From contig NZ_JBCJKP010000001.1 in NCBI RefSeq assembly GCF_039503195.1, positions 7,564,001-7,628,000 of the forward strand: 64,000 nt of DNA. Reading direction: 5' to 3'. The notes below the pieces were generated by a model. That model did no database searches, was not told where the DNA came from, and saw only the letters and a list, made by a program, of their open reading frames with translations. Below, one piece after another: positions 42,175 to 64,000 of this stretch. Each line of letters begins with the position of its first letter. Position 1 is the first letter of the stretch. The stretch is from Streptomyces mirabilis (lineage in GTDB: Bacteria; Actinomycetota; Actinomycetes; Streptomycetales; Streptomycetaceae). The position numbers and the translations under genes are program-made.

Positions 42175-42313
42175 CGGCCCTGCCACCGCAGGGGCTGACA
42201 GCTTTGTGGTGAGCGGCCGGGCAACGTCCACGTAGACTGGTGGGCTGTTGTCCGGCCGTTCGCGGTTCCGCGACCCCTTCCTCATCCCCTTTCGCATCTG
42301 GAGTCACCCCGCC

Positions 42314-43760: not shown

Positions 43761-45347
43761 TCAGCGTCGTGACGCGGCGATCCGTGCGCGCAGTGCCTTC
43801 TTGTCGACCTTCCCCATCGGTGTGCGCGGAAGCTGCGGCATCGGAATCAGCCGGTCGGGGATCTTGTAGGTCGCCAGGCCGCGGCCTCTGAGGAACTCCT
43901 TCATGGCGGACGGGCGGACGTCCGCCTCGTTGAGGACGACGAAGGCGTACGTCCGCTCGCCGAGCACGGTGTCCGCCACGCCGATCACGGCCGCGTCCTG
44001 CACGGCGGGGTGGGTGCGCAGTTGCCGCTCCACCTCCTCCGCGGAGACCTTCTCGCCGGCCCGGTTGATGACGTCCTTGATCCTGCCGACGATCATGATG
44101 TTGCCGTCCGGCCTGCGCCGGACGAGGTCGCCGGTGCGGAAGAAACCGTCCGGTGTGAACGACCGGGCGTTCTCCTCGGGAGCCCGGTAGTACCCGCGGA
44201 TCGTGTACGGACCGCGCACCTGCATCTCGCCGGCCTCCCCGTCGGGCACCGGGTTCCCGGACTCGTCGACGATCCGGACCTCGTCGCCCGGTGACATCGG
44301 GCGGCCGTCCGTGTTCACGGCCACCTCCTCCGGGTCGTCGAGCCGGGTGTGGGTCAGCAGCCCCTCGCTGATGCCGTACCACCGCTGGATCCGGCAGCCC
44401 AGCTCCTGGGCCGCGCGGCGCGCCAGGGCCGGGTCGAGCGGGGCACTGCCCACCTGGATCAGCAGGCGGGACGGTTCGCCGGGCGGTCGTCCGGAATCGG
44501 CCCACAGCCGCAGCACCGAGGGCACGACCGTGGTCACGGTGACTGCCTCGCGGCGGATCAGCGAGAAGACGTCGTCGGGCCGTACGCTCGACGTGAGTAC
44601 CGCCTTCCCTCCCATCAGGAGACTGCCGAACACGCCCGGACAGGCGAGGGCCGCCTGGTGCGCGACCGGGTTGACGGCGAGGTACACCACCTCCGGACCC
44701 ACCCGCATCGCCTCCGCGCTGGCCCGCATGACGTACGTGTAGTCGTCGTGGGTCCGGGGAATCAGCTTCGGCAGTCCGGTGGTGCCCCCGGAGAGCAGGA
44801 ACAGCGCGGGGTCGGACGCGTCCACCCTGGGCAGCGCGACGTCCTGGGCGTCCAGCGACTCCAGCGAAACGAACTCCTGGCCGTCGCCGCTGACGATCAC
44901 GTGCGGGACCGACGGGATCTCCCGGGCGATCGTACGGAAGTCGAACCCGCCGAACTCGTCCTTCACCACATAGGCGACAGCCCCGGAGTGAGCGCACAGA
45001 TGCGCGATCTCGGCCCTGCGGTGACCGGGCAGCGCCAGCACCGGGATCGCTCCGGCCCGCAGCAGCGCGAAGACCAGGACGACGAACTCCGGGATGTTGG
45101 GGAGGTGCACCACCACCCGATCCAGGGGCCTGATGCCCAGTCCGATCAGGCCGCCCGCCAACCGGTCCGCCCGCCGGGACAGCTCCGCGTAGGTCATCCG
45201 GCGTTCGCCGCACACCACGGCCACGCGATCGGCGTTCCGTTCGCACGACTCGTGCAACAAGTCACCGATCGGCCGGCCGAGCCAGACCCCTGTCCGGCGC
45301 AGGTCCGCCGCGAGCTGTTCAGGCCAGTGCACAAAACCGTCAAGCAT
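43761..45347 (-). CDS. Stand-alone aryl-acid AMP ligase (DhbE/EntE-like)
   Basis: 528 residues. Adenylation core motifs are LSGGTTGLPKLIPRTHDDY, YGISEGL and FFRTGDLVRRRPDGN, ending PRTPMGKVDKKALR. It resembles ligases that activate 2,3-dihydroxybenzoate, salicylate, picolinates and quinoxaline/quinaldic acids. The pocket segment reads VAHQAALACPG; DHB ligases have HN at that point, so DHB is unlikely. There is no fused carrier domain. The ATG at 45347 has AAGGGA nine bases upstream. In the quinomycin pathway such an enzyme loads the aryl chromophore onto a carrier protein supplied in trans (family knowledge). Confidence 0.88.
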   Translation of the reverse strand: MLDGFVHWPEQLAADLRRTGVWLGRPIGDLLHESCERNADRVAVVCGERRMTYAELSRRADRLAGGLIGLGIRPLDRVVVHLPNIPEFVVLVFALLRAGAIPVLALPGHRRAEIAHLCAHSGAVAYVVKDEFGGFDFRTIAREIPSVPHVIVSGDGQEFVSLESLDAQDVALPRVDASDPALFLLSGGTTGLPKLIPRTHDDYTYVMRASAEAMRVGPEVVYLAVNPVAHQAALACPGVFGSLLMGGKAVLTSSVRPDDVFSLIRREAVTVTTVVPSVLRLWADSGRPPGEPSRLLIQVGSAPLDPALARRAAQELGCRIQRWYGISEGLLTHTRLDDPEEVAVNTDGRPMSPGDEVRIVDESGNPVPDGEAGEMQVRGPYTIRGYYRAPEENARSFTPDGFFRTGDLVRRRPDGNIMIVGRIKDVINRAGEKVSAEEVERQLRTHPAVQDAAVIGVADTVLGERTYAFVVLNEADVRPSAMKEFLRGRGLATYKIPDRLIPMPQLPRTPMGKVDKKALRARIAASRR

Positions 45348-45708
45348 GATCGCGTTCCCTTTCGGCGGGTCGGTCGAAGCGTGGATCGAGGGGGGCGCGA
45401 AGGTCCGGGTGGAGCCGCGGGTGCGCTCCGTCCGTCCGGGCCGCGGGACGGCGGACGCGGGGTGGAGGGCGCGTGCCTTCTCACGGTGGCGGGCGGTGTC
45501 CGGTGTGGTGGTGTGCTGCGTCCGCGTGCGAGGTGAGCCCGGTGCCGTGCGGCGGCGTGCCCGCGGTCCTTGTGTTCCTTGGCATCGTCGGCGGCGCGTT
45601 CCACCGCGCCCCGATCTCTTGCCGACATCTGTCGAGGGCCCCGCGAATCGGCGGCGAGTGGAAAACATGGTGCGGACGGAACGACGGCCGGCCAGGAAGG
45701 CGGAGTGG
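45348..45708. other. Divergent promoter region of the cluster
   Basis: About 360 bases between the ligase gene and the thioesterase gene. It contains the short inverted repeat CGACATCTGTCG at 45623-45634, a possible operator. No gene is supported. It should drive both arms of the cluster. Confidence 0.55.
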
Positions 45709-46454
45709 ATGAGCCGGATACGGGAACGCGGCTGGGTGCGGTCGATGATCGCCGGTGACCCTGCCGGCGTCCGGGTGGTGTGCTTCCCGCACTCGGGGGA
45801 TCGGGAGTCGCCTTCGGCGAGTGGTCCGCCGCGGTGCCGCCCGGTGTGTCGCTGATGGCCGTCCAGTACCCGGGCCGCGGCGACCGCTTCGGAGAAGAGC
45901 CCGTGGACGACGTGGCCGCGATGGCCGGCTGCGTGGCGGCGGAGCTGCTGCGGTTGCCGCCGGGCGACCACGTGCTGTTCGGGCACAGTCTCGGGGCGCT
46001 GGTCGCCTACGAGACCGCCCTGCTGCTGCGGGACGCCGGTGAGGAACCCCGGGCGCTCTGCGTGTCCGCCGCACTGCCGCCCGGATCCATGACCAACAGG
46101 GGTGTCCACCTGGCGCCCGACGACGAGTTCTGGTCGACCCTGTGCGCGCTGGGCGGCATCGAGCCCGCGGTCGCCGAGAACGCCGAGCTGCGCGACCTCC
46201 TCCTGCCCGTCATCCGCTCGGACCTGCGGGCCCACGCGACCTACCGGCCCCGCCCCGGCACCCGTCCGCTGTCCTGTCCCGTGCGCAGCTACCACGGCGC
46301 GGGCGACCCGCTGGTGGAGCAGGACCAGCTGGCGGGGTGGGCGAGCGTCACCTCCGGCGGCTTTTCGGGGACCGTGCGGCCGGGCGGGCACTTCCACGTG
46401 ACGACCGACGTCGCGGAACTCGTCGCGGACGTGCTGAGCCAGGGCCCGAGGTGA
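45709..46454 (+). pseudogene. Type II thioesterase, interrupted by a one-base frameshift
   Basis: Alpha/beta hydrolase that removes wrong or stalled acyl groups from NRPS carrier domains, or releases precursor amino acids. The 5' part (MSRIRERGWVRSMIAGDPAG, then VRVVCFPHSG) is in one frame; the rest (GGSGVAFGEWSAAVPPGVSL onward, with GHSLGALVAYE and HFH) is in another. One added G in the GGGGG run at 45795-45799 would give the family sequence VCFPHSGGSG. The start at 45709 has GGAG upstream. If real, the downstream frame could start only at 45780, losing the first strand, so the enzyme would be crippled. A sequence error is equally possible. Confidence 0.85.
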
Positions 46455-46461
46455 GGCGGCC

Positions 46462-47496
46462 TTGACCACCATCGCCGTGATCCCCGGTGACGGCATCGGT
46501 CCCGAGGTGATCGAGCCGGCGCTGGACGTCCTCGACGCCCTCCGCCTCGGGACGCGTACGGACGTCCTGGACCACGTCAACGCGGAGACCTACCTGCGCA
46601 CCGGAACCGCGCTGACCGGAGCCGACCTCGACCGGATCAGGTCCAGCCAGGCGGCGCTCCTCGGCGCGGTCGGGGACCCCCGGCTCAGCGACACCGCGTA
46701 CGTGCGTACGGTCCTCACCACCCTGCGCCTCGAACTCGACCTCTACGTCAACTACCGGCCCGCCAGGCTCCTGCACGACAGGCTCAGTCCGCTGCGCGAC
46801 CCGGCCCGCCGGCCGATCGACTGCGTGATCGTCAGGGAGAACATCGAGGGGCTCTACAGCGGCATCGGCGGCGGTACGCGCACCGGTACCCCCCAGGAGA
46901 TCGCCATCGACGTGGACCTCAGTACCCACCAAGGCGTCTCACGGGTGCTGGAGTTCGCGTTCTCCGTGGCGCGCAGGTCGGTGTGCCTCGTCGACAAGGC
47001 CAACGCCGTCCGCAACGGCGGACAGCTGTGGCAGCGGTGCTGGAGCGAGGCCATCGCACGGCACCCGCACGTCGAGACGTCCCACCTCTACGTGGACACC
47101 GCCGCCCTGCGACTGGCCACCGATCCGACCGCCTTCGACGTCGTCGTCACCAACAACTCCTACGGCGACATCCTGAGCGACCTCACGGCCGCGCTGGCCG
47201 GCGGCCTCGGCGTGGCGGCGTCGGCGAACCTCAACCCCGTGACCGGACAAGGGCTCTTCGAGCCCGTGCACGGCAGCGCCCCGGACATCGCGGGTACCCG
47301 CACCGCCAACCCGTTCGGCGCGATCCTCTCCGTGGCCCTGCTGGTCGAGCACCTGGGCCGGACCGAGGAGGCGGACGCGGTCCGCCGGGCGGTCGCCGCG
47401 GCCGTCGCGGCGGGCCGCGTCACCCCCGATCTCGGCGGGTCCCTGAGTACGAAAGAGGCCGGCACCGCGGTCCTGACGGAACTGCGGCGGCCGTAG
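46462..47496 (+). CDS. Isopropylmalate/isocitrate dehydrogenase-like enzyme
   Basis: 344 residues of the beta-decarboxylating dehydrogenase family. Motifs are IPGDGIGPEV at the N-terminus, CVIVRENIEGLYSGIGG, DKANAVRNGG, NNSYGDILSDLTAALAGG (metal Asp) and FEPVHGSAPDIAG (NAD-binding). It is only seven bases after the thioesterase stop, so it belongs to the cluster and not to leucine synthesis. The TTG at 46462 with GAGG five bases before is the most likely start. In quinoxaline-type clusters a homologue is believed to take part in converting the kynurenine-derived intermediate, probably oxidising a beta-hydroxy acid. Confidence 0.88.
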   Translation: MTTIAVIPGDGIGPEVIEPALDVLDALRLGTRTDVLDHVNAETYLRTGTALTGADLDRIRSSQAALLGAVGDPRLSDTAYVRTVLTTLRLELDLYVNYRPARLLHDRLSPLRDPARRPIDCVIVRENIEGLYSGIGGGTRTGTPQEIAIDVDLSTHQGVSRVLEFAFSVARRSVCLVDKANAVRNGGQLWQRCWSEAIARHPHVETSHLYVDTAALRLATDPTAFDVVVTNNSYGDILSDLTAALAGGLGVAASANLNPVTGQGLFEPVHGSAPDIAGTRTANPFGAILSVALLVEHLGRTEEADAVRRAVAAAVAAGRVTPDLGGSLSTKEAGTAVLTELRRP

Positions 47497-47562
47497 CGAG
47501 GTGCGGACGCGGACACGACCCGACAACCGCCGGCGGAGCAACGGACGAGGGGCAAGGACGGT

Positions 47563-48939
47563 ATGAACGCGAACGACACGGACCGCACGGACGGGAACCC
47601 GGAGACCGTCATCGTGGGGGCCGGTCTGGTGGGCGTGGTCACGGCTCTCTACCTGGCGCCCCGCTTCGGACCGGTCACCCTGCTGGAGAAACGGGCGGAC
47701 CCCAGGCGGAACTCCGGTGGACAACGCCGGTCACTGGTCGTGATGCTGTCGGCGCGCGGCTGGCGCGCCCTGTCGGACCTGGGAGTCGCGGACGCCGTGC
47801 GCCGCATATGCGTCCCCCTGCACGGACGCTGCGGGCACCTGCCCGACGGCCGGACGCGCATGACCCCCTACAGCCGGGACGGACAGCCCATCTGGGCGGT
47901 GGAGCGCCGGCGGCTGCACCACATCCTGCTGGACGCCGCCGAGGCGACCCCCGGTGTGCGCCTCCGCTTCGGGCAGCGCGTGGGCTCGGTGGACCTGGAC
48001 GAACCCGCGGTGGTGGTGGAGGACCGGCACGGCTCGCACCGGCTGACGTGCCGCCGGGTCCTCGGCTGCGACGGCGCGCACTCCGCCGCCCGGGCCGCCC
48101 TGGAGGCGCGCGGCACCCGGGCCGAGGTGCGCACGCTGGACCTGGCCTACCAGGAGATCGACGTACCGGCAGGCCGGCTGGACCCGACCATCACGCACTA
48201 CTGGCCCTCCGGGAAGGCGATGTTCGCCGCGCACCCCCTGCCGTCGGGGAAGCTATCGGGCTCCTTGTTCATGCGCCTCGACGGCCCCGCCCCGTCCTAC
48301 GCGGCGGCCCGCGGCGGCCAGGACCTGTACGAGACGTTCGCCGCCCACTTCCCCGAGCTGACCGGGATCATCCCCGACATCGCGGAACAGCTCGCCACCA
48401 AGGCCGTCTCGACCCTCACGGCCGTCCGCTGCGACCGATGGGTCTGGCGAGACACCTTCGCGCTGCTCGGTGATTCCTGTCATGCGATGGCGCCCTTCAT
48501 GGGGCACGGCATGAACTGCGGTTTCGAGGACGCCCGGGTCCTCGTCGACTGCCTCGACGCCGCCGCGGACCGGGCGGCGGGCCTGGCAGCCTACGAGAAG
48601 TCGCGGATCGAGGACGCCGACGCGATCTCCCGGCTCTCCTACCGGCACTACTTCACGATGGCCGGCCCACCGCGCGAGGAGACCGCTGCGGAGGTGCTGC
48701 GCGGGCGGCTGACGGTGCTGTTCCCCGACCGGTTCGTTCCGCTGTACGAGCGGTGCGCCTTCACCGAGGAGAGCTACGCCTCCGTACTGCGTGACGACCA
48801 GCGTCTGGACCGGCTCCTGGCGGATCTGTTGGCCCGGTACGGCACCGAGCTGGTCTCGGCGTCCGACGACCGACTGCGCGCCTGCATCCCTTCCCCCACC
48901 CCGACCACCGCCACCCCGGAGGACTCCGTATGTTCGTGA
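47563..48939 (+). CDS. Kynurenine 3-monooxygenase-like FAD monooxygenase
   Basis: 458 residues. The N-terminal dinucleotide fold VIVGAGLVGVVTALYLA is followed by RRSLVVMLSARGWRALSDLG, LGCDGAHSAAR and LLGDSCHAMAPFMGHGMNCG. The block SRIEDADAISRLSYRHY near residue 355 is the hallmark of kynurenine monooxygenases. It lacks the C-terminal membrane helix of eukaryotic enzymes. It should hydroxylate or epoxidise a kynurenine-type aromatic ring with NAD(P)H and oxygen. Start ATG 47563 has AAGGA upstream. Its stop overlaps the next gene by ten bases. Confidence 0.9.
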   Translation: MNANDTDRTDGNPETVIVGAGLVGVVTALYLAPRFGPVTLLEKRADPRRNSGGQRRSLVVMLSARGWRALSDLGVADAVRRICVPLHGRCGHLPDGRTRMTPYSRDGQPIWAVERRRLHHILLDAAEATPGVRLRFGQRVGSVDLDEPAVVVEDRHGSHRLTCRRVLGCDGAHSAARAALEARGTRAEVRTLDLAYQEIDVPAGRLDPTITHYWPSGKAMFAAHPLPSGKLSGSLFMRLDGPAPSYAAARGGQDLYETFAAHFPELTGIIPDIAEQLATKAVSTLTAVRCDRWVWRDTFALLGDSCHAMAPFMGHGMNCGFEDARVLVDCLDAAADRAAGLAAYEKSRIEDADAISRLSYRHYFTMAGPPREETAAEVLRGRLTVLFPDRFVPLYERCAFTEESYASVLRDDQRLDRLLADLLARYGTELVSASDDRLRACIPSPTPTTATPEDSVCS

Positions 48940-49268
48940 TCCTGTTCAAGTCGCGCCTGTCCGAGCAGGCCGGCGAGGACTACTACGCCACCGAGGAGCG
49001 GATGCAGGAGCGGGTCCGCGCCATTGCCGGGTCCGACCCGGTGGAGGTCAAGCACTACACCGGGGAGGACGGCGAACGTCTCGCCGTCATGATGTGGCGG
49101 GACGGGGAGACGCTGGACAAGTGGCGCTGCGACCCCGAGCACCAGGTGGCGCAGCGACTGGGCAGGAAACACTGGTACGCCGCCTACGAGCTGACCGTCG
49201 CCGAGGTGGTCCGGACCAGCGCGCACGGCAACGAAAGCCCGGCCGCGGCGGCGGAGGGGCCGCGCTAG
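48930..49268 (+). CDS. Small ABM-fold (antibiotic biosynthesis monooxygenase-like) protein
   Basis: 112 residues of the dimeric alpha-beta barrel type: MFVILFKSRL...YYATEERMQERV...VEVKHYTGEDGERLAVMMW...W..DPEHQVAQRLGRKHWYAAYELTVAEVV. Members include cofactor-free oxygenases and structural helper proteins. The ATG at 48930 has GGAGG seven bases before and lies inside the end of the monooxygenase gene. It probably assists chromophore oxidation. Its own reaction is not predictable. Confidence 0.8.
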   Translation: MFVILFKSRLSEQAGEDYYATEERMQERVRAIAGSDPVEVKHYTGEDGERLAVMMWRDGETLDKWRCDPEHQVAQRLGRKHWYAAYELTVAEVVRTSAHGNESPAAAAEGPR

Positions 49269-49527: not shown

Positions 49528-52500
49528 ATGGGTTGTACCGGCGTCACATCCGCGCAGGAAGCCATGTGGCTCGCGCAGGAATTCACTCCGGACGTACCGA
49601 ACAACGTGGCGACTCTCTGGGACATCGACGGTGACCTGGACACCGTCCTGCTCGCCGCGGCCCTGGGGGCGGCGGTGGCGGAAGCCGACGCGCTGAAGGT
49701 GAACTTCCGCCGCGACGACCACGGGCTGCGGCCGGTCGCCCGGGACCTCGGGGCGTGGGAGCCGTTCCGCCTCGATGTCGGCGACGCCGCCGACCCCGCC
49801 GACGCGGCCCGCGCCGTCGTCGCCGATCTCGTGCGCCGGCCCTTCGACCTGACCGAGGACGCGCTGCTGCGGATCGGCTCGATCCGGCTGGGCCCCGGCC
49901 GCCACCTGCTCGTGCTCGTCTTCCACCACATCCTCACCGACGCGTTCGGCGTTCTCACCCTGCTGTCCCGGCGGATCGCCGAGATCTACCGCGCGCTGCG
50001 CGCCGGCTCCGCGTTGCCGGAGGGCGCCCCGAACCCGGCGGGGGACGCCGCGGCGAAGGACGCCGTCTACCGGGACTCGCAGCGGTTCGCCGACGCCGAG
50101 CGGTTCTGGCGCGACTACCTCGCCGAAGACCTGCCCGCCGCCCGTCTGCCCGCCGGTGTCCGTCCGGGCACCGACGCCCCCACCGGGGGGCCCGGCTACT
50201 GGGACGGCCTCACCGCACCGCAGGGGATGGCCACCCGCACCGCGACGGTCCCGGCCGTCGAACTCGCCGCCTGGGAACACGCCTCCGCCGCGGCGGGTAC
50301 CTCGGTGCCCGACCTGATCGCCTCGGCCGCCACCGCGTTCCTGCGGCACATGTGCGGTCTGTCCGAGCAGCTGCTGACCATCACCGTCAATCACCGCGTC
50401 GGCGCACTGCGCCGCTCGCTCGGCCTCCTCTCCAACCGGGTGCCGCTGCGCTCGCGGGTGGACCCCGCGGCCGACTTCGTGGAACTGGCTGAGGCGCTCG
50501 GCCGGGAGCGGCGCCGTGTCCTGCGCCACGCCCGGCACGACATATCCCTGATCAAACGGGCCACCGGCCACGCCGGCGACGCGCGCAGCCCGTTCGGCGC
50601 GGTCGTCAACGTGCTCCCCTCCGTCGAAGCACTCGACCTGGCGGGCGCCACAGCCCACTTCGCCGGTGGCACCTTCGGCGTGATCGACGAGGTGATGGTC
50701 TGCGTCTACACCGACGGAAGGGCCGACAGCGACCTGTACGTCCGCTTCGACGCGCCGCGCGCGGAGTACGACGACCAGGACATCGCCGGGCTCGCCGAGC
50801 GGTTCGTGACGTTCCTGCGCGGGGCCCTCGCCAACCCGCACGCCCCGGTCGGGACCGTCTCCGCGCTGCACCCCGCCGAACGCCGCGCGCTGCTCACCGA
50901 GTACGCCGGACCCACGGTGACCTCACCGCCGACGACCCTGACCGAACTGCTGGACCGACAGGCCCGCGCCACCCCGGACGCGGTCGCGGTGACCTTCGAG
51001 GACACCCGGGTGACCTACCGGGAACTGGCCGAGCGGTCTGGCCGGCTGGCCCGCCTGCTGACCGAGCGCGGCGCCGGGCCCGAGCGGTTCGTCGCGGTCG
51101 CCGTGCCCCGCTCCCTGGAACTGGTCGTCGCCCTGGTCGCGGTGCTCAGGGCGGGCGCCGCCTACGTCCCCGTCGACCCTGACTACCCGGCCGCGCGGGT
51201 CGAGTTCATGCTCGCCGACGCCGGGCCCGCGCTGCTGCTGACGGTCAAGGACACCGCGGACCGGCTGCCCCGGACGGACGTCCCCGTGGTCATGGTCGAC
51301 GACGCCCCGCTCACCGAAGAGCCCGTCAGGTCCGCCCCGCACCGGGTCGACCACCCCGCATACATGATCTACACGTCGGGATCGACCGGACGGCCCAAGG
51401 GCGCCGTCGTCACGCACGCGGCGATCGTCAACCGGCTGCTCTGGATGCAGGATCGCTTCCGGCTCGACGGTTCCGACCGGGTCCTGCAGAAGACGTCCGC
51501 CTCGTTCGACGTGTCCGTCTGGGAGTTCTTCTGGCCGCTGATCACCGGCGCCACCCTGGTGGTCGCCCGGCCGGACGGGCACCGCGACCCGGACTACCTG
51601 GCCGAGGTGATCCAGCGGGCCGGCGTCACGACCGCGCACTTCGTCCCGTCGATGCTGGCCGAGTTCGTCACCGAGGAGACGGCTGCCGCGTGCACCGGTC
51701 TGCGCCGCGTCGTGTGCAGCGGAGAGGCGCTGCCGGCCGAGCTGGCCGCGCGGTTCCACCGGACCTTCGGCGTGCCGCTGCACAACCTGTACGGGCCGAC
51801 CGAGGCAGCCGTGGACGTCACCGCGTGGCAGTACCGGCCCGGGGCGCGGACGATACCGATCGGCACCCCGATCTGGAACACCGCGCTCTACGTCCTCGAC
51901 AGCCGGCTGCGACCGCTGCCGCCCGGCGTCTTCGGCGACCTCTACATCGCGGGCGCCGGACTCGCCCGGGGCTACCACGACCGTCGGGCCCTGACCGCCG
52001 AGCGCTTCGTGGCCTGCCCGTTCGGGGAACCCGGGCGGCGCATGTACCGGACCGGCGACCTGGCCCGCTGGAACGCCGACGGCGAACTGGAGTTCGCCGG
52101 CCGCGCCGACCACCAGGTGAAGATCCGCGGCTTCCGGGTCGAGCCGCAGGAGATCGAGGACACGCTGACCGACCACCCGGGAGTGCTCAGGGCGGCCGTC
52201 GTCGCCCGGCCCGGCCGAGCCGCGGACGGAGCCGCGCAGCTCGTCGCCTACGTCGTCCCGGCCACCTCCGGCGGCAACGGCGGGACCGGCACCGAATGGG
52301 ACCTGCACGCCGGCCTGGACATCGCCGAGCTGCGGGGCTTCGTCGCGGCCCGGCTGCCCGCCCACCTGGTGCCCGCCGCCTTCGTCGCGCTGGACCGGAT
52401 GCCGTTGACCGCGAACGGCAAGCTGGACCGGGCCGGCCTGCCCGAGCCGGAGGTCACCGGCCGTGCCCACCGGCCGCCCCGGACCGGTGACGAGAGCCTC

Positions 52501-55500
52501 CTGGCCGCAGCGTTCGCCGAGGTGCTCGGCCTGAGCCACATCGGGGTCGACGACGACTTCTTCACTCTGGGCGGCGACAGCATCCGGGCGATCCAGGTGG
52601 TGGGCCGAGCCCGCGCCGGCGGTCTCGCGCTCACCCCGCGCACCGTGTTCGAGTGCCGCACCGTCGCCGCGCTCGCGCAGGCCGCGACCCGCGACACCGC
52701 ACCGGTGGCCCTCGCCGAGCTCGAGGGCGGGGGCGTCGGTCTGCTGCCGCTGCCTCCCATGGCCCGGCTGTACGCCGAGCGAGGCCCCGGCCTGGACCGC
52801 CTCGCCCAGTGGCTGGTACTGGAACTGCCCGCAGCCGTCGACCTCCCCGGCCTCACCGCGGCCGTGCGCGCCGTCCTCGACCGGCACGACGTCCTGCGCT
52901 CACGGCTGACGGACGACGGCCTGCTGGTGCGGCCACCCGGCACTCCGGACACCGGCGGATTCATCGACCGGGTCGACTGCCCCGGGGACTGGGGCGGCGA
53001 GGAGTGGCAGACCCTGCTGCGCGCAAAGGCCGCCGAGGCCGTACGGCACATCGACGCCCGGGCCGGGCGGATGCTCCGGCTGGTCTGGTTCCCGGGGGCC
53101 GCGGGCGGGCCCGGACGGCTGCTGGTCGTGGCCCACCACCTGGTCGTGGACGGCATGTCCTGGCGGGTGCTGCTGCCCGACCTGGCCACCGCCTGGCGCC
53201 AGGTCCAGGAAGGCCGGCCCCCCGCGTTGCCGCGGGTGGGCACCTCCCTGCGCCGATGGCTGCACGCCCTGGCCGACGAAGCGGCCCGCCCCGGACGGGT
53301 GGCGGAGGCGTCGTTGTGGCGCGACCTGCTCGAGGCACCCGTCGCACCCGTGGGCTCCCGGCCGCTTGACCCCGGGCGAGACCTCACCTCCACCACGGAC
53401 ACCGTCCGGGTGGAGCTCCCGGCCGACCTCACGGACGCGATACTGACCTCCGTCCCCGCGGCCTACCGCAGCGGCGCGGACGACGTCCTGCTCACCGCCC
53501 TGGTCCTCGCGCTGGCCCGGGAACGGCGGGGTCTCACCGACGGCACGACGGTCGTACGGCTGGAAGGGCACGGGCGGCAGGAGGAGCTGGTGCCGGGCGC
53601 GGACCTGTCCCGCACGGCCGGCTGGTTCACCACGGTCACCCCCGTACGCGTCGACGTCTCGGGGATCGACGTCGACGCCGCGATCACCGGAGGAGCCGCC
53701 GCCGGTGACGCCCTCAAGCGGGTGAAGGAGCAGCGGCGGGCCCTGCCCGACCAGGGCATCGGCTACACCCTGCTGCGCTACCTCAACGACGACACCGCGG
53801 CGCTGCTGAGCCCGTACCCGGCGGACGACATCGGATTCAACTTCCTGGGCCGTTTCACCTTCGAACGCCCGGAGCCGGCGCCCGGCGAGGACCCCACCCG
53901 CGGCCCCGGATGGACCCCGGCGCCCGAATGCGCCGAGGTGGTCGCCGCACCCGCCGCGGACATGCCGGCGCCCAGCGCGCTCGAACTGAACGCCCTGGTC
54001 ACCGGCACCGGCGACGACGCGCGCCTCACCGCCCTGTTCACCTTCGCCACCGGAGTGCTGACCGCCGACGAGGTCCGCGCCCTGTCCGGCACCTGGTGCG
54101 CCGCACTGCGCGGCCTGCGGAGCCTGGTCGCGTCCGGCGGGCGGGGACTGACCCCGTCCGACGTCCCGCTGGTCACCGTCGGCCAGGAGGAACTGGACGG
54201 CTGGCAACAGCGCTTCGGGCGCGTCAGCGACGTATGGCCGCTCACGCCGTTGCAGGACGGGCTGCTGTATCACACGATGCTCGCGCAGAGCGCGTCCGAG
54301 GCGTACCAGACGCAGTTCGTGTTCCGGCTCGAAGGCGCGGTCGACCCGGCGCGCCTGCGGGCCGCGGGCCAGGCCCTGCTCGACCGGCACCCGAACCTGC
54401 GGGTCGCGTTCCGGCCGAGCGCCACCGGTGAGCCCGTGCAGGTCGTCGTGGACGACGTCCCGCTGCCCTGGCGGCACCTCGACCTCACCGGCGAGGCCGA
54501 CGCCGCCACCCGGCTGGAGGAGATCCTCGCCGAGGAGCGGGACGCCCGCTTCCGCCCGGAGAGCCCGCCGCTGCTGCGCCTGACCCTCGTCACGCTCGGC
54601 CCCCAACACGCCGAACTGGCCCTCACCGCCCACCACGTGCTGCTCGACGGCTGGTCGGTGCCGCTCGTCGAGCGCGAGCTGATGCAGCTGTACGGGGCCG
54701 ACGGCGTCGACACCGCGTCGGCGCGCCCGCACGGCTACCGGGACTTCCTGAGCTGGCTGTCACGGCAGGACACGGCACGCTCCGCCCGCGCGTGGGCCGA
54801 GGAACTCGCCGGTGTGGCCGAGCCGACCCTGCTGGCGCCCGCGACGCCCGGGGCCCGGTCGGCCGGCAGCGGCAGCGGGCAGATCGACGTGCCGCTCACC
54901 GGCGAGGACACCACCAGGCTGGCGCGCCGGGCCGCGGAGTGGGGCGTCACCCCCAACACCCTGGTGCAGGGCGCCTGGGCCATGGTGCTCGCGCAGCTCA
55001 CCGGCCGCGAGGACGTGCTGTTCGGCGCCACGGTCGCGGGCCGGCCCTCCGGGCTGCCGGGCGCGGACACCATGACCGGCCTGTTCATCAACACGGTGCC
55101 CGTGCGGGTGCGATGCACGCCGGCCGACCCGGTCCCGGAGGTGCTCGGCCGGCTCCAGGACGCCCAGGCGAGGCTGTTGGACCATCACCATCTGGGGCTC
55201 GCCGACATCCAGCGAGCGACCGGGCTGAACGCGCTGTTCGACACGCTGGTGGTGTTCGAGTCGTTCCCCGTCGACCGGTCCGGCCGCTCGGCGGCGGGCG
55301 CGTCGGCGCAACCGGTGGTGAGCGGTATCCGCCCGTACGCCCCGCCGCACTACCCGCTGACCGTGATCGCGGCGGCCGACCCGCTGTTGCGGATCTCCTT
55401 CCAGTACCGGCGCAACGCATTCGAGCGGACCGCCGTGGAGGCGCTCGCCGACCGGCTGGTGCGGGTGCTGCGGCAGATCGCCGCCGGTCCGCGGACCACC

Positions 55501-57324
55501 GTCGGCGCGCTCGACGTGCTGTCCGACGCCGAACGTGAACAGGTGCTGCACGGCTGGAACGACACCACGGTCCCGCCCCCCGAGCGGACCGTCCCCGAGC
55601 TGATCGCGGCGCGGGCGGCGGCGACGCCGGACACGGTCTGCGTCGAGTTCCGCGGGCACCGGCTGACCTTCCGGGAGCTGGACGAACGGGCCGGCCGGCT
55701 GGCGCACTGGCTGGCCGGGCAGGGGGTGGGCCCGGAGTCCCGGGTCGTGGTGCTGCTGCCCCGTTCGGCCGACCTGGTGGTGGCCCTGCTGGCCGTGTGG
55801 AAGGCCGGCGGCACGTATGTGCCGGTGGATCCGGAGTATCCGGCCGCCCGGGTGCGGGCCGTGGTCGAGGACAGCGCACCGGTGCTGCTCCTCGACGAGG
55901 AACGGCTGGCCGGGGTGGACCTGTCCGACCGGTCCCCCCACCCTGCCCACGGCCCGCGCGTTCCGGCCGGCGCCGACCACGCCGCCTACGTCATCTACAC
56001 CTCCGGCTCCACTGGCACACCCAAGGGCGTGGTGGTCCGGCACGGTGCGCTGGCGATCCTGCTGACCGGTATGCGGGATCGATTCGCCTTCACGCCGGAC
56101 GACGGGCTGCTGGCCTGCGCCACCGTCGCGTTCGACATCGCCGCGCTGGAACTCTTCCTTCCCCTGCTCGCCGGCGGCCGGGTGGTACTGGCCGGCAAGG
56201 ACGACATCACCCAGCCGACGGCACTGCTCGACCTCGTCGAACGGTCCGGCGTCACCGTCATGCAGGCCACCCCCGCGCTCTGGCAGAGCCTGGTCACCCA
56301 CGCGCCGGCCTGTCTGACCGGGCTGCGGGTGATCTCCACCGGCGAGGCCCTGCCCCTGGCGCTCGCCGAAACCCTGTGCCGGCACGCCGCCGAGGTCACC
56401 AACCTCTACGGCCCGACCGAGACCACCGTCTACGCCACCGCCGCCCGTCTGCTCCCCGGCCACTGCGGCATGCCTCCCTCGGTCGGCGGCCCGGTCGCCG
56501 GCACCCGGATCCTCGTACTGGACCGCACACTGCGCCCGGTGCCGCCCGGCGCTGCCGGTGACCTCTGGATCGCCGGCGAGGGCCTGGCCCGCGGCTACCA
56601 CGACAGGCCGGGCATGACCGCGGAGCGGTTCGTGGCCTGCCCGTTCGGGCCACCGGGCGAGCGGATGTACCGCAGCGGGGATCTCGCCCGCTGGACGGTC
56701 ACGGGTGAGGTGGAGTACCTCGGCCGCTCCGACCACCAGATCAAACTGCGCGGCTTCCGGATCGAGCCCGCCGAGATCGAGCACACCCTGACCCGCCACC
56801 CCGCGGTCCGCCGGGCGGTCGTCATCGACCGTGAGGACCGGCCGGGCGACCGCCGGCTGGTGGCGTACGTGGTCCCGGAGACCGGCACCGAGCCGCCCAC
56901 CACGGAACTCCTGCGGGAGGCGGTCGGAGAGCGGCTGCCGGCCCATATGATCCCGGCCGCGTTCGTGACGCTCACGGAACTGCCGCTGACGCCCAACGGC
57001 AAACTCGACCGTTCCGCCCTGCCCCGCCCGGAGTTCGGCGGGGACGAGTACCGGGCTCCGCGCTCGCCCCGGGAACAGACGCTGTGCGCGCTGTTCGCCG
57101 AGGTCCTGGGCGCCGAGCGGATCGGTCTCGACGACGACTTCTTCGTCCTGGGCGGCCATTCACTGATGGCCACCCGACTGGTGGCCCGGGTACGCGCCGA
57201 AATGGGCGTGGAAATCCCGATGCGCGTTCTGTTCACCGCCCCGACCGTCGCCGAACTGACCGACCGCTGGAACGAGATGTCGGCCTCCACCCGAATGCCG
57301 CTGCGGAGAATGACCGAAAGGTAG
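49528..57324 (+). CDS. NRPS1: C-A(Ser)-T-E-C-A(Gly/Ala-like)-T
   Basis: 2598 residues, two modules. C1 is EntF-like and has HHILTDA at 133-139 where the consensus ends in DG. A1 (about 475-985) has TSGSTGRPKG near 616 and a pocket I read as D-V-W-H-V-S-L-V-D, a serine code; its region FDVSVWEFFWPL to NLYGPTEAAVDV is close to EntF. T1 carries Ser1018 (GGDS). An epimerisation domain follows (HHLVVDG at 1203, GFNFLGRF), so D-Ser is expected. C2 (HHVLLDG at 1702) joins it to A2, read as D-I-L-Q-I-T-L-V-Y, nearest to Gly-type codes. T2 has Ser2545 (GGHS). No thioesterase. The aryl carrier is not included, so it must come in trans. Confidence 0.93.
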   Translation: MGCTGVTSAQEAMWLAQEFTPDVPNNVATLWDIDGDLDTVLLAAALGAAVAEADALKVNFRRDDHGLRPVARDLGAWEPFRLDVGDAADPADAARAVVADLVRRPFDLTEDALLRIGSIRLGPGRHLLVLVFHHILTDAFGVLTLLSRRIAEIYRALRAGSALPEGAPNPAGDAAAKDAVYRDSQRFADAERFWRDYLAEDLPAARLPAGVRPGTDAPTGGPGYWDGLTAPQGMATRTATVPAVELAAWEHASAAAGTSVPDLIASAATAFLRHMCGLSEQLLTITVNHRVGALRRSLGLLSNRVPLRSRVDPAADFVELAEALGRERRRVLRHARHDISLIKRATGHAGDARSPFGAVVNVLPSVEALDLAGATAHFAGGTFGVIDEVMVCVYTDGRADSDLYVRFDAPRAEYDDQDIAGLAERFVTFLRGALANPHAPVGTVSALHPAERRALLTEYAGPTVTSPPTTLTELLDRQARATPDAVAVTFEDTRVTYRELAERSGRLARLLTERGAGPERFVAVAVPRSLELVVALVAVLRAGAAYVPVDPDYPAARVEFMLADAGPALLLTVKDTADRLPRTDVPVVMVDDAPLTEEPVRSAPHRVDHPAYMIYTSGSTGRPKGAVVTHAAIVNRLLWMQDRFRLDGSDRVLQKTSASFDVSVWEFFWPLITGATLVVARPDGHRDPDYLAEVIQRAGVTTAHFVPSMLAEFVTEETAAACTGLRRVVCSGEALPAELAARFHRTFGVPLHNLYGPTEAAVDVTAWQYRPGARTIPIGTPIWNTALYVLDSRLRPLPPGVFGDLYIAGAGLARGYHDRRALTAERFVACPFGEPGRRMYRTGDLARWNADGELEFAGRADHQVKIRGFRVEPQEIEDTLTDHPGVLRAAVVARPGRAADGAAQLVAYVVPATSGGNGGTGTEWDLHAGLDIAELRGFVAARLPAHLVPAAFVALDRMPLTANGKLDRAGLPEPEVTGRAHRPPRTGDESLLAAAFAEVLGLSHIGVDDDFFTLGGDSIRAIQVVGRARAGGLALTPRTVFECRTVAALAQAATRDTAPVALAELEGGGVGLLPLPPMARLYAERGPGLDRLAQWLVLELPAAVDLPGLTAAVRAVLDRHDVLRSRLTDDGLLVRPPGTPDTGGFIDRVDCPGDWGGEEWQTLLRAKAAEAVRHIDARAGRMLRLVWFPGAAGGPGRLLVVAHHLVVDGMSWRVLLPDLATAWRQVQEGRPPALPRVGTSLRRWLHALADEAARPGRVAEASLWRDLLEAPVAPVGSRPLDPGRDLTSTTDTVRVELPADLTDAILTSVPAAYRSGADDVLLTALVLALARERRGLTDGTTVVRLEGHGRQEELVPGADLSRTAGWFTTVTPVRVDVSGIDVDAAITGGAAAGDALKRVKEQRRALPDQGIGYTLLRYLNDDTAALLSPYPADDIGFNFLGRFTFERPEPAPGEDPTRGPGWTPAPECAEVVAAPAADMPAPSALELNALVTGTGDDARLTALFTFATGVLTADEVRALSGTWCAALRGLRSLVASGGRGLTPSDVPLVTVGQEELDGWQQRFGRVSDVWPLTPLQDGLLYHTMLAQSASEAYQTQFVFRLEGAVDPARLRAAGQALLDRHPNLRVAFRPSATGEPVQVVVDDVPLPWRHLDLTGEADAATRLEEILAEERDARFRPESPPLLRLTLVTLGPQHAELALTAHHVLLDGWSVPLVERELMQLYGADGVDTASARPHGYRDFLSWLSRQDTARSARAWAEELAGVAEPTLLAPATPGARSAGSGSGQIDVPLTGEDTTRLARRAAEWGVTPNTLVQGAWAMVLAQLTGREDVLFGATVAGRPSGLPGADTMTGLFINTVPVRVRCTPADPVPEVLGRLQDAQARLLDHHHLGLADIQRATGLNALFDTLVVFESFPVDRSGRSAAGASAQPVVSGIRPYAPPHYPLTVIAAADPLLRISFQYRRNAFERTAVEALADRLVRVLRQIAAGPRTTVGALDVLSDAEREQVLHGWNDTTVPPPERTVPELIAARAAATPDTVCVEFRGHRLTFRELDERAGRLAHWLAGQGVGPESRVVVLLPRSADLVVALLAVWKAGGTYVPVDPEYPAARVRAVVEDSAPVLLLDEERLAGVDLSDRSPHPAHGPRVPAGADHAAYVIYTSGSTGTPKGVVVRHGALAILLTGMRDRFAFTPDDGLLACATVAFDIAALELFLPLLAGGRVVLAGKDDITQPTALLDLVERSGVTVMQATPALWQSLVTHAPACLTGLRVISTGEALPLALAETLCRHAAEVTNLYGPTETTVYATAARLLPGHCGMPPSVGGPVAGTRILVLDRTLRPVPPGAAGDLWIAGEGLARGYHDRPGMTAERFVACPFGPPGERMYRSGDLARWTVTGEVEYLGRSDHQIKLRGFRIEPAEIEHTLTRHPAVRRAVVIDREDRPGDRRLVAYVVPETGTEPPTTELLREAVGERLPAHMIPAAFVTLTELPLTPNGKLDRSALPRPEFGGDEYRAPRSPREQTLCALFAEVLGAERIGLDDDFFVLGGHSLMATRLVARVRAEMGVEIPMRVLFTAPTVAELTDRWNEMSASTRMPLRRMTER

Positions 57325-57332
57325 GAAAGACC

Positions 57333-60300: not shown

Positions 60301-63300
60301 GCTGGTCGCCCGAGCGCGTCCTCGAACTCGGCGTCGGCACCGGACTCCTGCTCGCGCACATCGCCGGCCGGGTGGAGGAGTACTGGGCCACCGACTTCTC
60401 CCAGGCCGTGATCGACCGGCTCAGTGACCAGGTGACCCGGGCCGGCCTGGCCGACCGGGTCCGGCTGCGCCGCCAGGCCGCCGACGACCTCACCGGACTG
60501 CCCCGGGGCACATTCGACACCGTGGTGCTCAACTCGGTCGTGCAGTACTTCCCCGACGAGCGCTACCTCGCCCGGGTCCTGGACGGCGCCTGGGAACTGC
60601 TCGCGCCGGGCGGCCGGATCGTCCTCGGCGACATCCGGCGGGCGTCCTCCCTGCGCACGCTCCAGACGGGCGTCCAGCGGACGAAGCACCCCGATGCGGC
60701 ACCGGCCGTACTGCGCACCACGGTCGACCAGGCCGTCCTGCTGGAGAAGGAACTGGTGGTCGACCCCGAGTCGTTCCTGCGCTGGGCGGACCGGGCCGGG
60801 GCGGCCGGTGCCGACATCCGCGCCAAGAACGGCACCCACCACAACGAGCTGACCCGGCACCGCTACGAGGTCGTGCTGCACAAGCCGGGCACGGCACCGG
60901 CGGACGCCCCGCGACGGCTCGACGTCGTCCCCACCCTGACCTGGGAGGGCGACCTCGGCCGGCTCGCCGACCGGTTACGTGACCGGTCCGAGCCGGCGGT
61001 GCGGATCACCGGAATCCCGAACGCCCGCCTCACCGAGGAGGCCGCGGCGGCCCGCGCCCTCGGCCTCGACGACTCCGCGGCGCCCGAACTGCCCCCGCTC
61101 GACCCCGCCGAGATCCGGGCCTGGGCCGCCCGGCACGGCTGGGACGCGGTGCCGACCTGGTCGGCCGACGCGGTCGACCTGCTCGACGTGATCGTGCTGT
61201 GCGACGGCCCGGCCGCCGGCACCACCCTCACCGGCACATACCTGCCGGTAACCGACGGACGCACCCCGGCGAACGACCCCGCGGCCGCCGCCGCCGTCAC
61301 GGCGCTGCTGCCCGCCCTGCGCGGCCATCTGCGGGAGACCTTGCCCGAGTACATGGTCCCGGCCGCCATCGTGCCCATCGCCGCCGTGCCGCTGACCGAC
61401 AACGGCAAGCCCGACCGGCGCGCCCTGCCCGTGCCCGACTACGTGGTCGGCGGCGGCCGGGCTCCCTCCACCCCGGAGGAGGAGTCGCTGTGCGCGCTGT
61501 TCGCCGCGGTACTCGGACTCGACCAGGTCGGCGTGGACGACAACTTCTTCACCGTCGGCGGCCACTCGCTCCTGGCCACCCGGCTGGTCAGCCGTATCCG
61601 TGCCGAGCACGGTGTGGAGATCCCCATCCGGGTCGTCTTCCAGTCGCCCACCGTCGCCGAACTGGCGGCCCACCTGAACACCCTGAGCAACGTCCGCCCG
61701 CCGCTCCGTCCCCAGGTCCGGCCCGAACGGCTGCCGCTGTCGTACGCCCAGCAGCGGCTGTGGTTCATCCACCGCTTCGAGGGACCCTCGGCGACCTACA
61801 ACGTCACGCTGGCTCTGCGCATGCGCGGCGAACTCGACGCGGCGGCCCTGCGCCGCGCCGTGCACGACGTCGTCGTGCGGCACGAATCGCTGCGCACCGT
61901 CTTCGGCGAGGCGGACGGACAGCCGTACCAGCGCATCCTGGAACCGGCCGTGGTCGAGGTCCCGTGGGAGGAGCGCGAGATCACCGAGGCCGAGCTGCCC
62001 GGCGCCCTGCGGGCGGCGGCGCGCCGTCCGTTCGACCTGGCGGCCGAGACCCCCATCCGCTCCTGGCTGCTGCGGACCGGCGAGCGCGAGGCGGTGTTCC
62101 TGATCGGCGCACACCACATCGCCGCCGACGGCTGGTCCGCCCTCCCGCTGGCCCAGGACCTCACCACCGCGTACGAGGCCCGCCGCGCAGGCCGGGTGCC
62201 CCAGTGGGAACCGCTTCCCGTGCAGTACGCCGACTACACCCTCTGGCAGCGGGAACTGCTGGGCGACACCGACACCCCGGGCAGCCTCTACCGGCGGCAG
62301 CTGGACTACTGGACCACCCAGCTGGCCGGCCTGCCCGAGACCGTCTCGCCGCCCGCCGACCGGCCCCGGCCCGCCGCGGCGTCGTACGCCGGCGACCTGG
62401 TGCCGCTCGCACTCGACCCGCAGCTCACCGACGGCGTGCGCAGGCTGGCCCGGGAGACCGGTGCCACGGTGTCGATGGTGCTCCAGGCGGCCCTTGCCGC
62501 GCTGCTCACCAGGCTCGGCGCGGGCACGGACGTGTCGATCGGCTCGCCCATCGCCGGACGCACCGACGAAGCGCTCAACCGGTTGGTCGGCTTCTTCGTC
62601 AACACGTGGGTGTTGCGCGCGGACACCTCGGGCGACCCCTCCTTCGCCGAGCTCGTCGGCCGGGTCCGCGAGAGCAGCCTCGCCGCCTACGACCACCAGG
62701 ACATCCCCTTCGAGCACCTGGTCGAGAAGCTCAACCCGGTCCGCTCGCCCGCCCACCACCCGCTGTTCCAGGTGTGCCTGGCGCTCCAGAACAACGCGCG
62801 GCCGGAGTTCCACCTGGCGGGCCTGACCGTGACCGAGGAGCCGTTCTCCCCGGGCACCTCCCGCTTCGACCTGTTCATCAGCGTCACCGAACAGGACGAG
62901 GACGGCGCGCCGGCCCGTATCGGGGGCTTCGCGGAGTACGCCACCGAGCTGTTCGACGCCGGGACGGTCAGCACGCTGCTCGACCGCTGGCTGCACTTCC
63001 TGCGCCAGGTGGTCGCCGCGCCGGAGACGCCCATCGGATCCGTCGGCGTCCTGGCCGAGCACGAGCGCGCCGCGCTCAGCGGCTGGGGCGGCGGAGGCCG
63101 GGACGCCCGGTTCGACGCCGGCACCCTTCCCGAGCGGTTCGCCGCCACGGCCGCGGCGACCCCGGACGCGACCGCGCTGGTCTCCGCGGACGGCACACTC
63201 GCCTGGACCTACGCCGAACTGGACCGCTGGGCCAACCGCCTCGCCCACCACTTCCGGGCCCGCGGCGCCCGCCCGGACAGCCGCGTCGCGCTCGTGCTGG

Positions 63301-64000
63301 AACGCTCGCCGCTGCTGGTCGCCGCCGTCCTCGGCGTCCTCAAGACCGGCGCCGCCTACGTGCCGGTCGACCCCACCTACCCGCCCGAGCGCATCGACTA
63401 CCTGCTCGCGGACCTCGCCCCGGCGGTCACCGTGTACGAGGACCTCGCCGAGGAGGATCTCGACGGGCTGCCCGACTCGCCGCCCGAGACGGAGGGCGTC
63501 GGCGAGTCCGCTGTCGCCTACGTGATGTACACCTCGGGTTCCACCGGACGACCCAAGGGCGTGGAGGTGACCCACCGGAACGTCGTCGACCTCGCGCTCG
63601 ACGGCTGCTTCGGCACCGGCGCCCACCACCGCGTCCTCCTCCACTCGCCGCACACCTTCGACGCGTCGACGTACGAGATGTGGGTGCCGCTGCTCGGCGG
63701 CGGCACGGCCGTGGTGGCTCGCGCCGGCCGGCCGGACACCGCGGAACTCGCCCGGGTGATCACCGAGCGGGAGGTGACGGGGCTGTGGCTGACCGCCGGA
63801 CTGTTCGCCGTGATGGCCGAACAGCACGCCGAGTGCTTCGGCGCCGTCCAGGAGGTGTGGGCGGGCGGCGACGTCCTCTCGCCGACCGCCGTCCGCGCGG
63901 TGCTCGACGCCTGTCCCGGCGTCATCGTGGTCAACGGCTACGGCCCGACCGAGACCACCACGTTCGCCTCCCGGCACCGGGTGGCCTCTGCCGCGGAGTG
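57333..64000 (+). CDS. NRPS2 (partial): C-A[N-MT]-T-C-A(Val-like)...
   Basis: Open from an ATG at 57333 (AGGAAAG upstream, eight bases after NRPS1) to the window end, 2222 codons and still running. C3 has HHIAGDG at 130. A3 (TSGSTGKPKG near 620) has pocket D-L-F-D-F-S-L-V-W, partly like Cys codes, with the Cys-type blocks FLSGDYTPLSLPDE and SLGGATEATVWSN. A methyltransferase (about 935-1230; LELGVGTGLLLAHI) is inserted before the A10 motif NGKPDRR (1357), the usual N-methylation layout. T3 has Ser1412. C4 has HHIAADG at 1594. A4 (TSGSTG at 2067) reads D-A-Y-W-W-G-G-T-F, Val-like. A second methyltransferase and a thioesterase are expected beyond 64000. Confidence 0.92.
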   Translation, partial: MTPLSYAQRRMWFINRFEGPSSTYNIPLLLRCHGPLDTVALRAAFRDVMIRHEVLRTVFAETDGQPYQRVLDPDEIELPWQDWGRVAPGRIPGVVGSVSGSWIDLSTDVPLRGCVLQSGDEEFLVVLVIHHIAGDGGSLAPLARDVSTAYRARVTGTAPDWSELPVQYSDYALWQHEMLGDEKDPDSVVTVQSAYWREELAGVSKPLPLPLDRPRPEVASFRGGSVPVGLPAELRAGVDKLAQTHGVTTSIVLQAALVTLLHRLGGGKDVTVGSPIAGRTEEALNELVGFFVNTWTLRVQVAADQPFERVLEQVRKKALAAYDHQDVPFERLVELLRPERSTAHHPLFQVVLAWQNNTPPHLDLPGLTVTMEPLPTGSAKFDLFFNLAPDESTGSVVGEIEYATDLFDRSTVEEIAARFVAVVEEVVADPRTPVGAAGEAGPGRSGGTLDAAERRKILVEWNDTARPVHCPGPVHLLFEEQAARRPDATALRWTGGTMTYGELNRWANRVAWDLKERGVGPETVVGVGVPRGPVMIAAVLGVLKAGGAYLPLEPALPADRVAGMLADAGCSLVLSTPDTERWALPDGVRLVELTAARSPGPDHDPEPAAGPDNTAYIIFTSGSTGKPKGVAVTHRPVHNLLDWCYRTFAFGPDDVALCVTSLGFDLSVFDVFGLLGCGGGVYIADAVQQRDPQLLLDVLLTEPITFWDSVPTTLNQVASLLTEDGGYEGTDDLRLVFLSGDYTPLSLPDEVRRVFTGAEIVSLGGATEATVWSNYFRVREIDPAWRSIPYGRPIDNARYYVLDENMEPCPVGVEGDLYIGGDCLCVGYVNRPELTAERFVRDPFSAREGDRLYRTGDRASFFPDGNICFLGRADNQVKLRGFRVEPGEIEHTLVRHPAVRQAIVTAREDRPGDLRLVAYVVPDTGALRPDGDADAQVGEWQEVYDQAYSHDNGHGFGEDFTGWNSSFTGEPIPLDEMRDWRDAAVERVLCWSPERVLELGVGTGLLLAHIAGRVEEYWATDFSQAVIDRLSDQVTRAGLADRVRLRRQAADDLTGLPRGTFDTVVLNSVVQYFPDERYLARVLDGAWELLAPGGRIVLGDIRRASSLRTLQTGVQRTKHPDAAPAVLRTTVDQAVLLEKELVVDPESFLRWADRAGAAGADIRAKNGTHHNELTRHRYEVVLHKPGTAPADAPRRLDVVPTLTWEGDLGRLADRLRDRSEPAVRITGIPNARLTEEAAAARALGLDDSAAPELPPLDPAEIRAWAARHGWDAVPTWSADAVDLLDVIVLCDGPAAGTTLTGTYLPVTDGRTPANDPAAAAAVTALLPALRGHLRETLPEYMVPAAIVPIAAVPLTDNGKPDRRALPVPDYVVGGGRAPSTPEEESLCALFAAVLGLDQVGVDDNFFTVGGHSLLATRLVSRIRAEHGVEIPIRVVFQSPTVAELAAHLNTLSNVRPPLRPQVRPERLPLSYAQQRLWFIHRFEGPSATYNVTLALRMRGELDAAALRRAVHDVVVRHESLRTVFGEADGQPYQRILEPAVVEVPWEEREITEAELPGALRAAARRPFDLAAETPIRSWLLRTGEREAVFLIGAHHIAADGWSALPLAQDLTTAYEARRAGRVPQWEPLPVQYADYTLWQRELLGDTDTPGSLYRRQLDYWTTQLAGLPETVSPPADRPRPAAASYAGDLVPLALDPQLTDGVRRLARETGATVSMVLQAALAALLTRLGAGTDVSIGSPIAGRTDEALNRLVGFFVNTWVLRADTSGDPSFAELVGRVRESSLAAYDHQDIPFEHLVEKLNPVRSPAHHPLFQVCLALQNNARPEFHLAGLTVTEEPFSPGTSRFDLFISVTEQDEDGAPARIGGFAEYATELFDAGTVSTLLDRWLHFLRQVVAAPETPIGSVGVLAEHERAALSGWGGGGRDARFDAGTLPERFAATAAATPDATALVSADGTLAWTYAELDRWANRLAHHFRARGARPDSRVALVLERSPLLVAAVLGVLKTGAAYVPVDPTYPPERIDYLLADLAPAVTVYEDLAEEDLDGLPDSPPETEGVGESAVAYVMYTSGSTGRPKGVEVTHRNVVDLALDGCFGTGAHHRVLLHSPHTFDASTYEMWVPLLGGGTAVVARAGRPDTAELARVITEREVTGLWLTAGLFAVMAEQHAECFGAVQEVWAGGDVLSPTAVRAVLDACPGVIVVNGYGPTETTTFASRHRVASAAE

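Follow-up and report, generated by a model that had tools for sequence, protein, structure and literature searches.

We analysed a 64,000-nucleotide stretch of the Streptomyces mirabilis genome (11.1 Mb, two contigs), positions 7564001-7628000 of contig 1, hereafter called the window. Its right part carries the beginning of a nonribosomal peptide synthetase (NRPS) gene cluster of the quinomycin type. We added the next 40 kb on its right side, numbered onward as 64001-104000, and scans of this sequence for open reading frames (ORFs) and Pfam families showed that the cluster reaches ~19 kb beyond the right window end. We conclude that the locus is very probably a complete ecm-type biosynthetic cluster for echinomycin (quinomycin A). 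The genes, with strand where noted, are listed below; NRPS domains are condensation (C), adenylation (A), thiolation (T), epimerisation (E), methyltransferase (MT) and thioesterase (TE).

42248-43642: TRAM/RNA methyltransferase, the left neighbour, taken as outside the cluster
43761..45347, minus strand: aryl-acid (quinoxaline-2-carboxylate) AMP ligase, Ecm1/TrsA/Qui16 type, 528 amino acids (Pfam AMP-binding)
45709..46454, plus strand: type II thioesterase, Ecm2/TrsQ/Qui14 type (Pfam Thioesterase, 128 bits on 45780-46451)
46462..47496, plus strand: isopropylmalate-dehydrogenase-like enzyme of the quinoxaline branch, Ecm3/TrsP/Qui13 type (Pfam Iso_dh, 306 bits)
47563..48939, plus strand: flavin adenine dinucleotide (FAD) monooxygenase of the quinoxaline branch, kynurenine-monooxygenase-like, Ecm4/TrsO/Qui12 type (Pfam FAD_binding_3, 102 bits)
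48930..49268, plus strand: 112-amino-acid protein of the antibiotic biosynthesis monooxygenase (ABM) fold, its gene overlapping the end of the FAD enzyme gene (PDB match, structure model, co-occurrence)
49528..57324, plus strand: NRPS1, 2598 amino acids, C-A-T-E-C-A-T, with modules 1 (serine, epimerised) and 2 (alanine predicted) (Pfam, motif positions, signatures)
57333..66737, plus strand, running past the window end at 64000: NRPS2, 3134 amino acids, C-A(MT)-T-C-A(MT)-T-TE, with modules 3 (N-methylcysteine predicted) and 4 (N-methylvaline predicted) (Pfam, motifs)
66784-66996: MbtH protein, assigned by motif and conservation in relatives rather than by family search
67186-67689: Trans_reg_C regulator
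68058-68753, minus strand: tryptophan 2,3-dioxygenase
68941-70128: cytochrome P450
70135-71895, minus strand: tryptophan-type (tryptophan-loading) A-T didomain protein
71986-73188, minus strand: erythromycin-esterase-like protein, taken by place and size as the esterase Ecm14/TrsF/Qui3
73257-74081, minus strand: MerR regulator
74189-76567: UvrA-like protein
76865-77803: thioredoxin-reductase-like enzyme (disulfide oxidoreductase)
77866-78849: ATP-binding cassette (ABC) transporter ATPase, named by eye
78846-79664: ABC permease
79742-80455: S-adenosylmethionine-dependent methyltransferase, Ecm18-type (thioacetal)
80496-81878: 460-amino-acid protein with no Pfam family, 64% identical to an S. 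diastatochromogenes protein encoded between UvrA and methyltransferase
81944-83329: FAD-oxidase-like ORF, named by eye; of the seven ecm-like relatives, five have it too

Pfam and NCBIfam scans placed every item named in a preliminary description of the window where that description had put it. Its assignment to the quinomycin class, with a tryptophan-derived cap, a four-residue assembly line and ecm-like gene order, proved right, and all the genes it expected further rightwards were found there: a second N-methyltransferase module, the TE domain, MbtH, tryptophan 2,3-dioxygenase, P450, and the UvrA-like and thioredoxin-reductase-like proteins. Downstream modules that would add many further residues were not seen, the nearest condensation domain beyond NRPS2 on this contig being over 500 kb away, and no isochorismate or salicylate genes occurred among the ORFs scanned (flank ORFs in part). 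The locus holds the gene set of quinoxaline-type clusters, namely the tryptophan-loading A-T protein, MbtH, P450, tryptophan 2,3-dioxygenase and esterase, along with the ligase and the pair of FAD enzyme and dehydrogenase. MbtH, the ABC ATPase, the methyltransferase and the last FAD-oxidase-like ORF were identified outside the Pfam scans. Elsewhere in the genome (contig 1, 8190483-8224782) we observed another large NRPS locus with many condensation domains and frames of 1558, 6347 and 4552 amino acids.

The ligase scored 554 bits against NCBIfam DHB_AMP_lig, under the equivalog cut-off of 723.55, and is DHB-AMP-ligase-like; read from ATG 45347, it has the same length as Qui16 (528 amino acids; PMC3578932, Table 1). 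A 939-amino-acid minus-strand ORF (43761-46580) was rejected as the ligase for its excessive length, and the start was set at 45347. The dehydrogenase scored under the NCBIfam leuB cut-offs and is 82-98% identical to its counterparts in bis-intercalator-type relatives. For the FAD enzyme, 126 homologues were found at E <= 1e-3 (7994 candidates scored), the nearest named one being 95% identical and from Streptomyces. At E <= 1e-100, this quinoxaline-type enzyme occurred in 7 of 392 sampled genomes of the genus, including its own. The PLSDB plasmid collection contained no such enzyme; six records gave matches, at only 30-35% identity.

The two synthetases have the two-protein layout of quinoxaline-type clusters. 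Pfam detected three condensation-type (C, E, C), two A and two T domains in NRPS1, and two C, two A, two MT, two T and one TE domain in NRPS2, with an MT inserted in each A domain. NRPS1 begins with a starter C domain, which reads HHILTDA instead of HHxxxDG. Module 4 of NRPS2 gave the best PDB match of that protein (5wmm, deposited as an NRPS and presumably TioS; 1251 bits). Adenylation signatures were obtained by alignment to gramicidin synthetase A, with the final K appended rather than read: DVWHVSLVDK (module 1), DILQITLVYK (module 2), DLFDFSLVWK (module 3), DAYWWGGTFK (module 4) and DAWVMTGVGK (A-T protein). We take the code-to-substrate assignments to be serine, alanine, cysteine and valine. 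Compared with S. echinatus, the signatures of modules 1, 2 and 4 and of the A-T protein are equal, and that of module 3 is off by one residue. Among nine relatives, all have the identical module 4 signature and eight the same module 3 variant as the window; the module 2 signature is identical in six, whereas ADI96-02 has one change and the trs-like A3M-1-3 and S. diastatochromogenes have two. The domain layout equals that given for Qui7 and Qui6 in the accessible text of PMC3578932.

The preliminary description had left the cap as a quinoxaline or a quinoline acid. According to the accessible portions of PMC4052310 and PMC3578932, the FAD enzyme and the dehydrogenase belong to the quinoxaline branch and an aminotransferase to the quinaldate branch. 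Since the locus encodes both of the former, and the Pfam scans of cluster ORFs turned up no aminotransferase (TioG/Swb1 in tio/swb), the quinoxaline half of that alternative holds, with quinoxaline-2-carboxylate as the cap, and the quinoline half falls away.

Both marker enzymes of the echinomycin (thioacetal) subtype, the disulfide oxidoreductase and the Ecm18-type methyltransferase, are encoded here. The methyltransferase is identical at 200 of 225 aligned residues to PDB 4nec, which was deposited as a putative SAM-dependent methyltransferase and which we take to be Ecm18. Close homologues (74-93%) occurred in 10 of the 14 records searched, namely those with bis-intercalator-type clusters; the other four held weaker matches only, the best-scoring being 46% identical. 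The UvrA-like protein is an Ecm16-type resistance protein, identical to Ecm16 (PDB 7sh1) at 737 of 793 aligned residues. S. echinatus, whose cluster is closely similar, is named as an echinomycin producer (PMC10192343, accessible part). The quinoxaline-branch genes, the methyltransferase and UvrA matches, the signatures and the S. echinatus comparison together point to echinomycin, and not merely triostin, as the predicted product.

We compared seven ecm-like relatives; the left end was missing from some of the stretches and was covered by separate locus comparisons. Loci L024-L030 keep the gene order of the window as far as they extend, and L031-L033 have the qui12-qui18 order. In S. echinatus CECT 3313 (G393; L025, L125, L126), all compared genes have the same order and orientation, at 89-97% identity per protein; it differs in the one module 3 signature residue and in having an open type II thioesterase frame. 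Together with S. cupreus, S. narbonensis and Streptomyces G285 it forms a collinear group at 87-100% per protein, within which G285 has the same order at 98-100%. Identity was lower (69-92%) in I6, ADI96-02 and S. typhae. In the stretches fetched, the last FAD-oxidase-like ORF had no match in ADI96-02 or S. typhae, and MbtH, the esterase and both ABC genes had none in S. typhae. In Streptomyces sp. I6 (L139/L140), the best NRPS1 and NRPS2 matches were partial, starting from residues 1410 and 612, and these genes may be interrupted or split.

Among the characterised systems, the ecm cluster of S. lasaliensis/lasalocidi agrees in gene order, provided that the ecm numbers reflect it; the window's cluster has an ABC exporter pair, whereas ecm is without one according to the accessible text of PMC3578932. 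In Table 1 of that paper, ecm5, ecm10 and ecm15 are without a qui homologue, and if the numbers follow gene order we infer that the MerR gene occupies the ecm15 slot and the ABM-fold gene the ecm5 slot. By the same published table, the trs (triostin) and qui (echinomycin) clusters have the same gene set, including the methyltransferase, the ABC exporter and a Qui9-type protein; the spot between UvrA and methyltransferase is the place of Qui9/TrsL. They differ in gene order and in the subtype of the dioxygenase, the enzyme encoded here being 33-35% identical to that of the qui-like-order loci L031-L033. The thiocoraline (tio) and SW-163 (swb) clusters are alike in the early tryptophan steps and NRPS layout (PMC4052310, accessible part) and differ in their 3-hydroxyquinaldate branch with its aminotransferase.

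What we describe for the cluster is its gene content, order, domain layout and identity to relatives, while all the reactions are carried over from the literature on ecm, trs and qui, and a role for the ABM-fold protein is proposed here only. In the pathway so derived, the A-T protein, assisted by MbtH, would load L-tryptophan, and the P450 would hydroxylate its beta carbon. The type II thioesterase would free beta-hydroxytryptophan, the dioxygenase would open the indole and the esterase may deformylate the product. Quinoxaline-2-carboxylate would then arise through the FAD enzyme, the dehydrogenase and probably also the ABM-fold protein; the ligase would activate this acid, and NRPS1 and NRPS2 would add D-serine, alanine, N-methylcysteine and N-methylvaline. 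The TE domain would dimerise and cyclise two chains. The thioredoxin-reductase-like enzyme would make the disulfide, and the Ecm18-type methyltransferase would convert it to the thioacetal. Protection of the producer would fall to the UvrA-like protein and the ABC exporter.

Several points weigh against this reading. The ecm cluster was compared solely via two solved proteins and the published table, and the alanine predicted for module 2 is assigned by identity with S. echinatus rather than by a tested code. A further point is the type II thioesterase gene: the upstream start is ATG 45709, and the downstream frame is open from 45780 only (45780-46454), owing to a frameshift close to the 5' end that shows against all seven aligned relatives, whose copies are intact. 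Unless it is a sequencing error, this could impair the release of beta-hydroxytryptophan. The frameshift is either a mutation or an assembly error, and it bears on whether the strain produces. A cluster silenced or crippled in this way is unlikely, though worth taking seriously: the frame is lost relative to every aligned relative, but the other compared genes are full length and 98-100% identical to those of G285, and assembly errors, too, typically leave a short run one base too long or too short. Enzymes of this type can often be replaced in part, which further counts against this outcome.

The product, too, could differ from echinomycin. A triostin-only reading, which dated from a first ORF/Pfam pass without a thioacetal methyltransferase, was dropped on finding that gene at 79742. 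The strain might still make mainly triostin A (the disulfide) if the methyltransferase were poorly expressed, as proposed for S. triostinicus, which has the gene yet makes mainly triostin A, the promoter being suggested as the cause (PMC3578932, accessible part). We regard this as improbable here: the reading frame is uninterrupted from end to end, the S. echinatus counterpart is 93% identical, and the gene is flanked as in that species by the ABC permease gene and the gene of the 460-amino-acid protein. The preliminary description had left the congener open and suggested a new one, and the single deviating residue in module 3 could be cited in favour of another residue at position 2, 3 or 4. 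This suggestion was not borne out, given signatures that match S. echinatus bar that difference and are largely common to the relatives, together with the Ecm18-type methyltransferase; we judge such a congener very improbable. A 3-hydroxyquinaldate-type cluster is hardly credible. Its likeness lies in the early genes and NRPS layout, and against it stand the FAD enzyme and dehydrogenase, the lack of an aminotransferase in the scanned cluster ORFs and the distribution of these genes in related loci, described below. Echinomycin remains the predicted product.

The ABM-fold protein is absent from the gene table and scheme in the accessible parts of PMC3578932 and PMC4052310. A search of the open-access literature, whose results did not include the original ecm and trs papers, returned no report on ecm5 or on an antibiotic biosynthesis monooxygenase with echinomycin. 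The protein scored 15.9 bits against Pfam ABM, under the cut-off of 23.1, and its sole PDB sequence match at E <= 1 was YqjZ (2go8; E 4e-8). An AlphaFold2 model of moderate confidence (mean predicted local distance difference test score, pLDDT, 68.6) placed ABM proteins first in Foldseek, which would support the fold only, not an active site.

The ABM-fold gene directly adjoins the FAD gene in 22 of 22 loci with an FAD enzyme of at least 54% identity (L024-L036, L104-L110, L217 and L218, L106 being the window itself and some assemblies appearing under two handles), and the dehydrogenase gene is there too. By contrast, none of 31 loci with FAD enzymes of 31-45% identity holds an ABM-fold or dehydrogenase gene (L037 with 21 kb, and L197-L216 and L219-L228 with 1.5 kb flanks), and 66 further distant loci (L038-L103) gave no ABM match at E <= 1e-4. 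These counts refer to the loci listed; the 126 FAD homologues include many others. Three ABM queries were used, two taken from L034 and L035 themselves; the window's own protein finds both of these at 55-56%. ABM-like proteins of 28-37% identity are encoded at other places in these genomes as well, and the fold by itself is therefore no marker.

Relatives of the A-T protein (at least 59% identity) occurred in 12 of the 392 genomes, and seven of these are the seven with the FAD enzyme. In the other five (G346, G238, G225, G017, G152), stretches of 8-40 kb showed neither the FAD gene nor those for the dehydrogenase and the ABM protein, and in G238, which was scanned, an aminotransferase gene sits between the P450 and thioesterase genes. 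From this joint presence and absence, the FAD, ABM and dehydrogenase genes behave as one unit of the quinoxaline branch. The G238 locus itself (L190/L191) encodes a tryptophan-type A-T protein, P450, ligase and aminotransferase together with a tryptophan halogenase, and is likely a halogenated quinaldate-type cluster.

The unit also occurs where a bis-intercalator-type NRPS was not seen, in Streptantibioticus ferralitis (L155/L156; 40 kb of a 43.9-kb contig), Streptomyces sp. CB02056 (L157/L158; 60 kb) and G326 (L160-L162; 60 kb). There it is accompanied by A-T and P450 genes and in part by thioesterase, dioxygenase and regulator genes; in G326 an NRPS-like ORF ~14 kb off is 38% identical to part of NRPS2. 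In S. ferralitis the unit adjoins genes for a tryptophan halogenase, a luciferase-like monooxygenase and a second P450. A halogenase homologue (77%) was found in G326, and homologues of the luciferase-like protein in both G326 and CB02056. Such clusters possibly make unknown halogenated quinoxalines; an open-access literature search returned no report joining quinoxaline-2-carboxylic acid with a halogenase. In Lentzea flava (L153/L154), a divergent quinoxaline cluster has the FAD enzyme, dehydrogenase and ABM protein at 64%, 77% and 55% identity, beside an A-domain-like protein, an MbtH-like match and NRPS-like fragments.

In the accessible text of PMC3578932, decarboxylation, cyclisation and oxidative aromatisation are called spontaneous. 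We hypothesise that the ABM-fold protein may help in these steps or in the FAD step. We give roughly even chances to the stronger proposal that it is an obligatory partner in quinoxaline-2-carboxylate formation, either taking part in the oxidative rearrangement alongside the FAD enzyme or catalysing cyclisation and oxidative aromatisation, and that the three genes are a portable unit, used also without a recognisable bis-intercalator NRPS in clusters that may make unknown, possibly halogenated, quinoxalines.

The cluster is itself ordinary, a further example of the known echinomycin-type clusters, and adds to the sources of a DNA-binding antitumour antibiotic that is already known. The sharp divide in where the ABM-fold gene occurs offers a testable answer to the question of which protein, if any, performs the steps called spontaneous. 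The gene may also serve as a genomic marker that tells quinoxaline from quinaldate clusters and helps to find further quinoxaline clusters.

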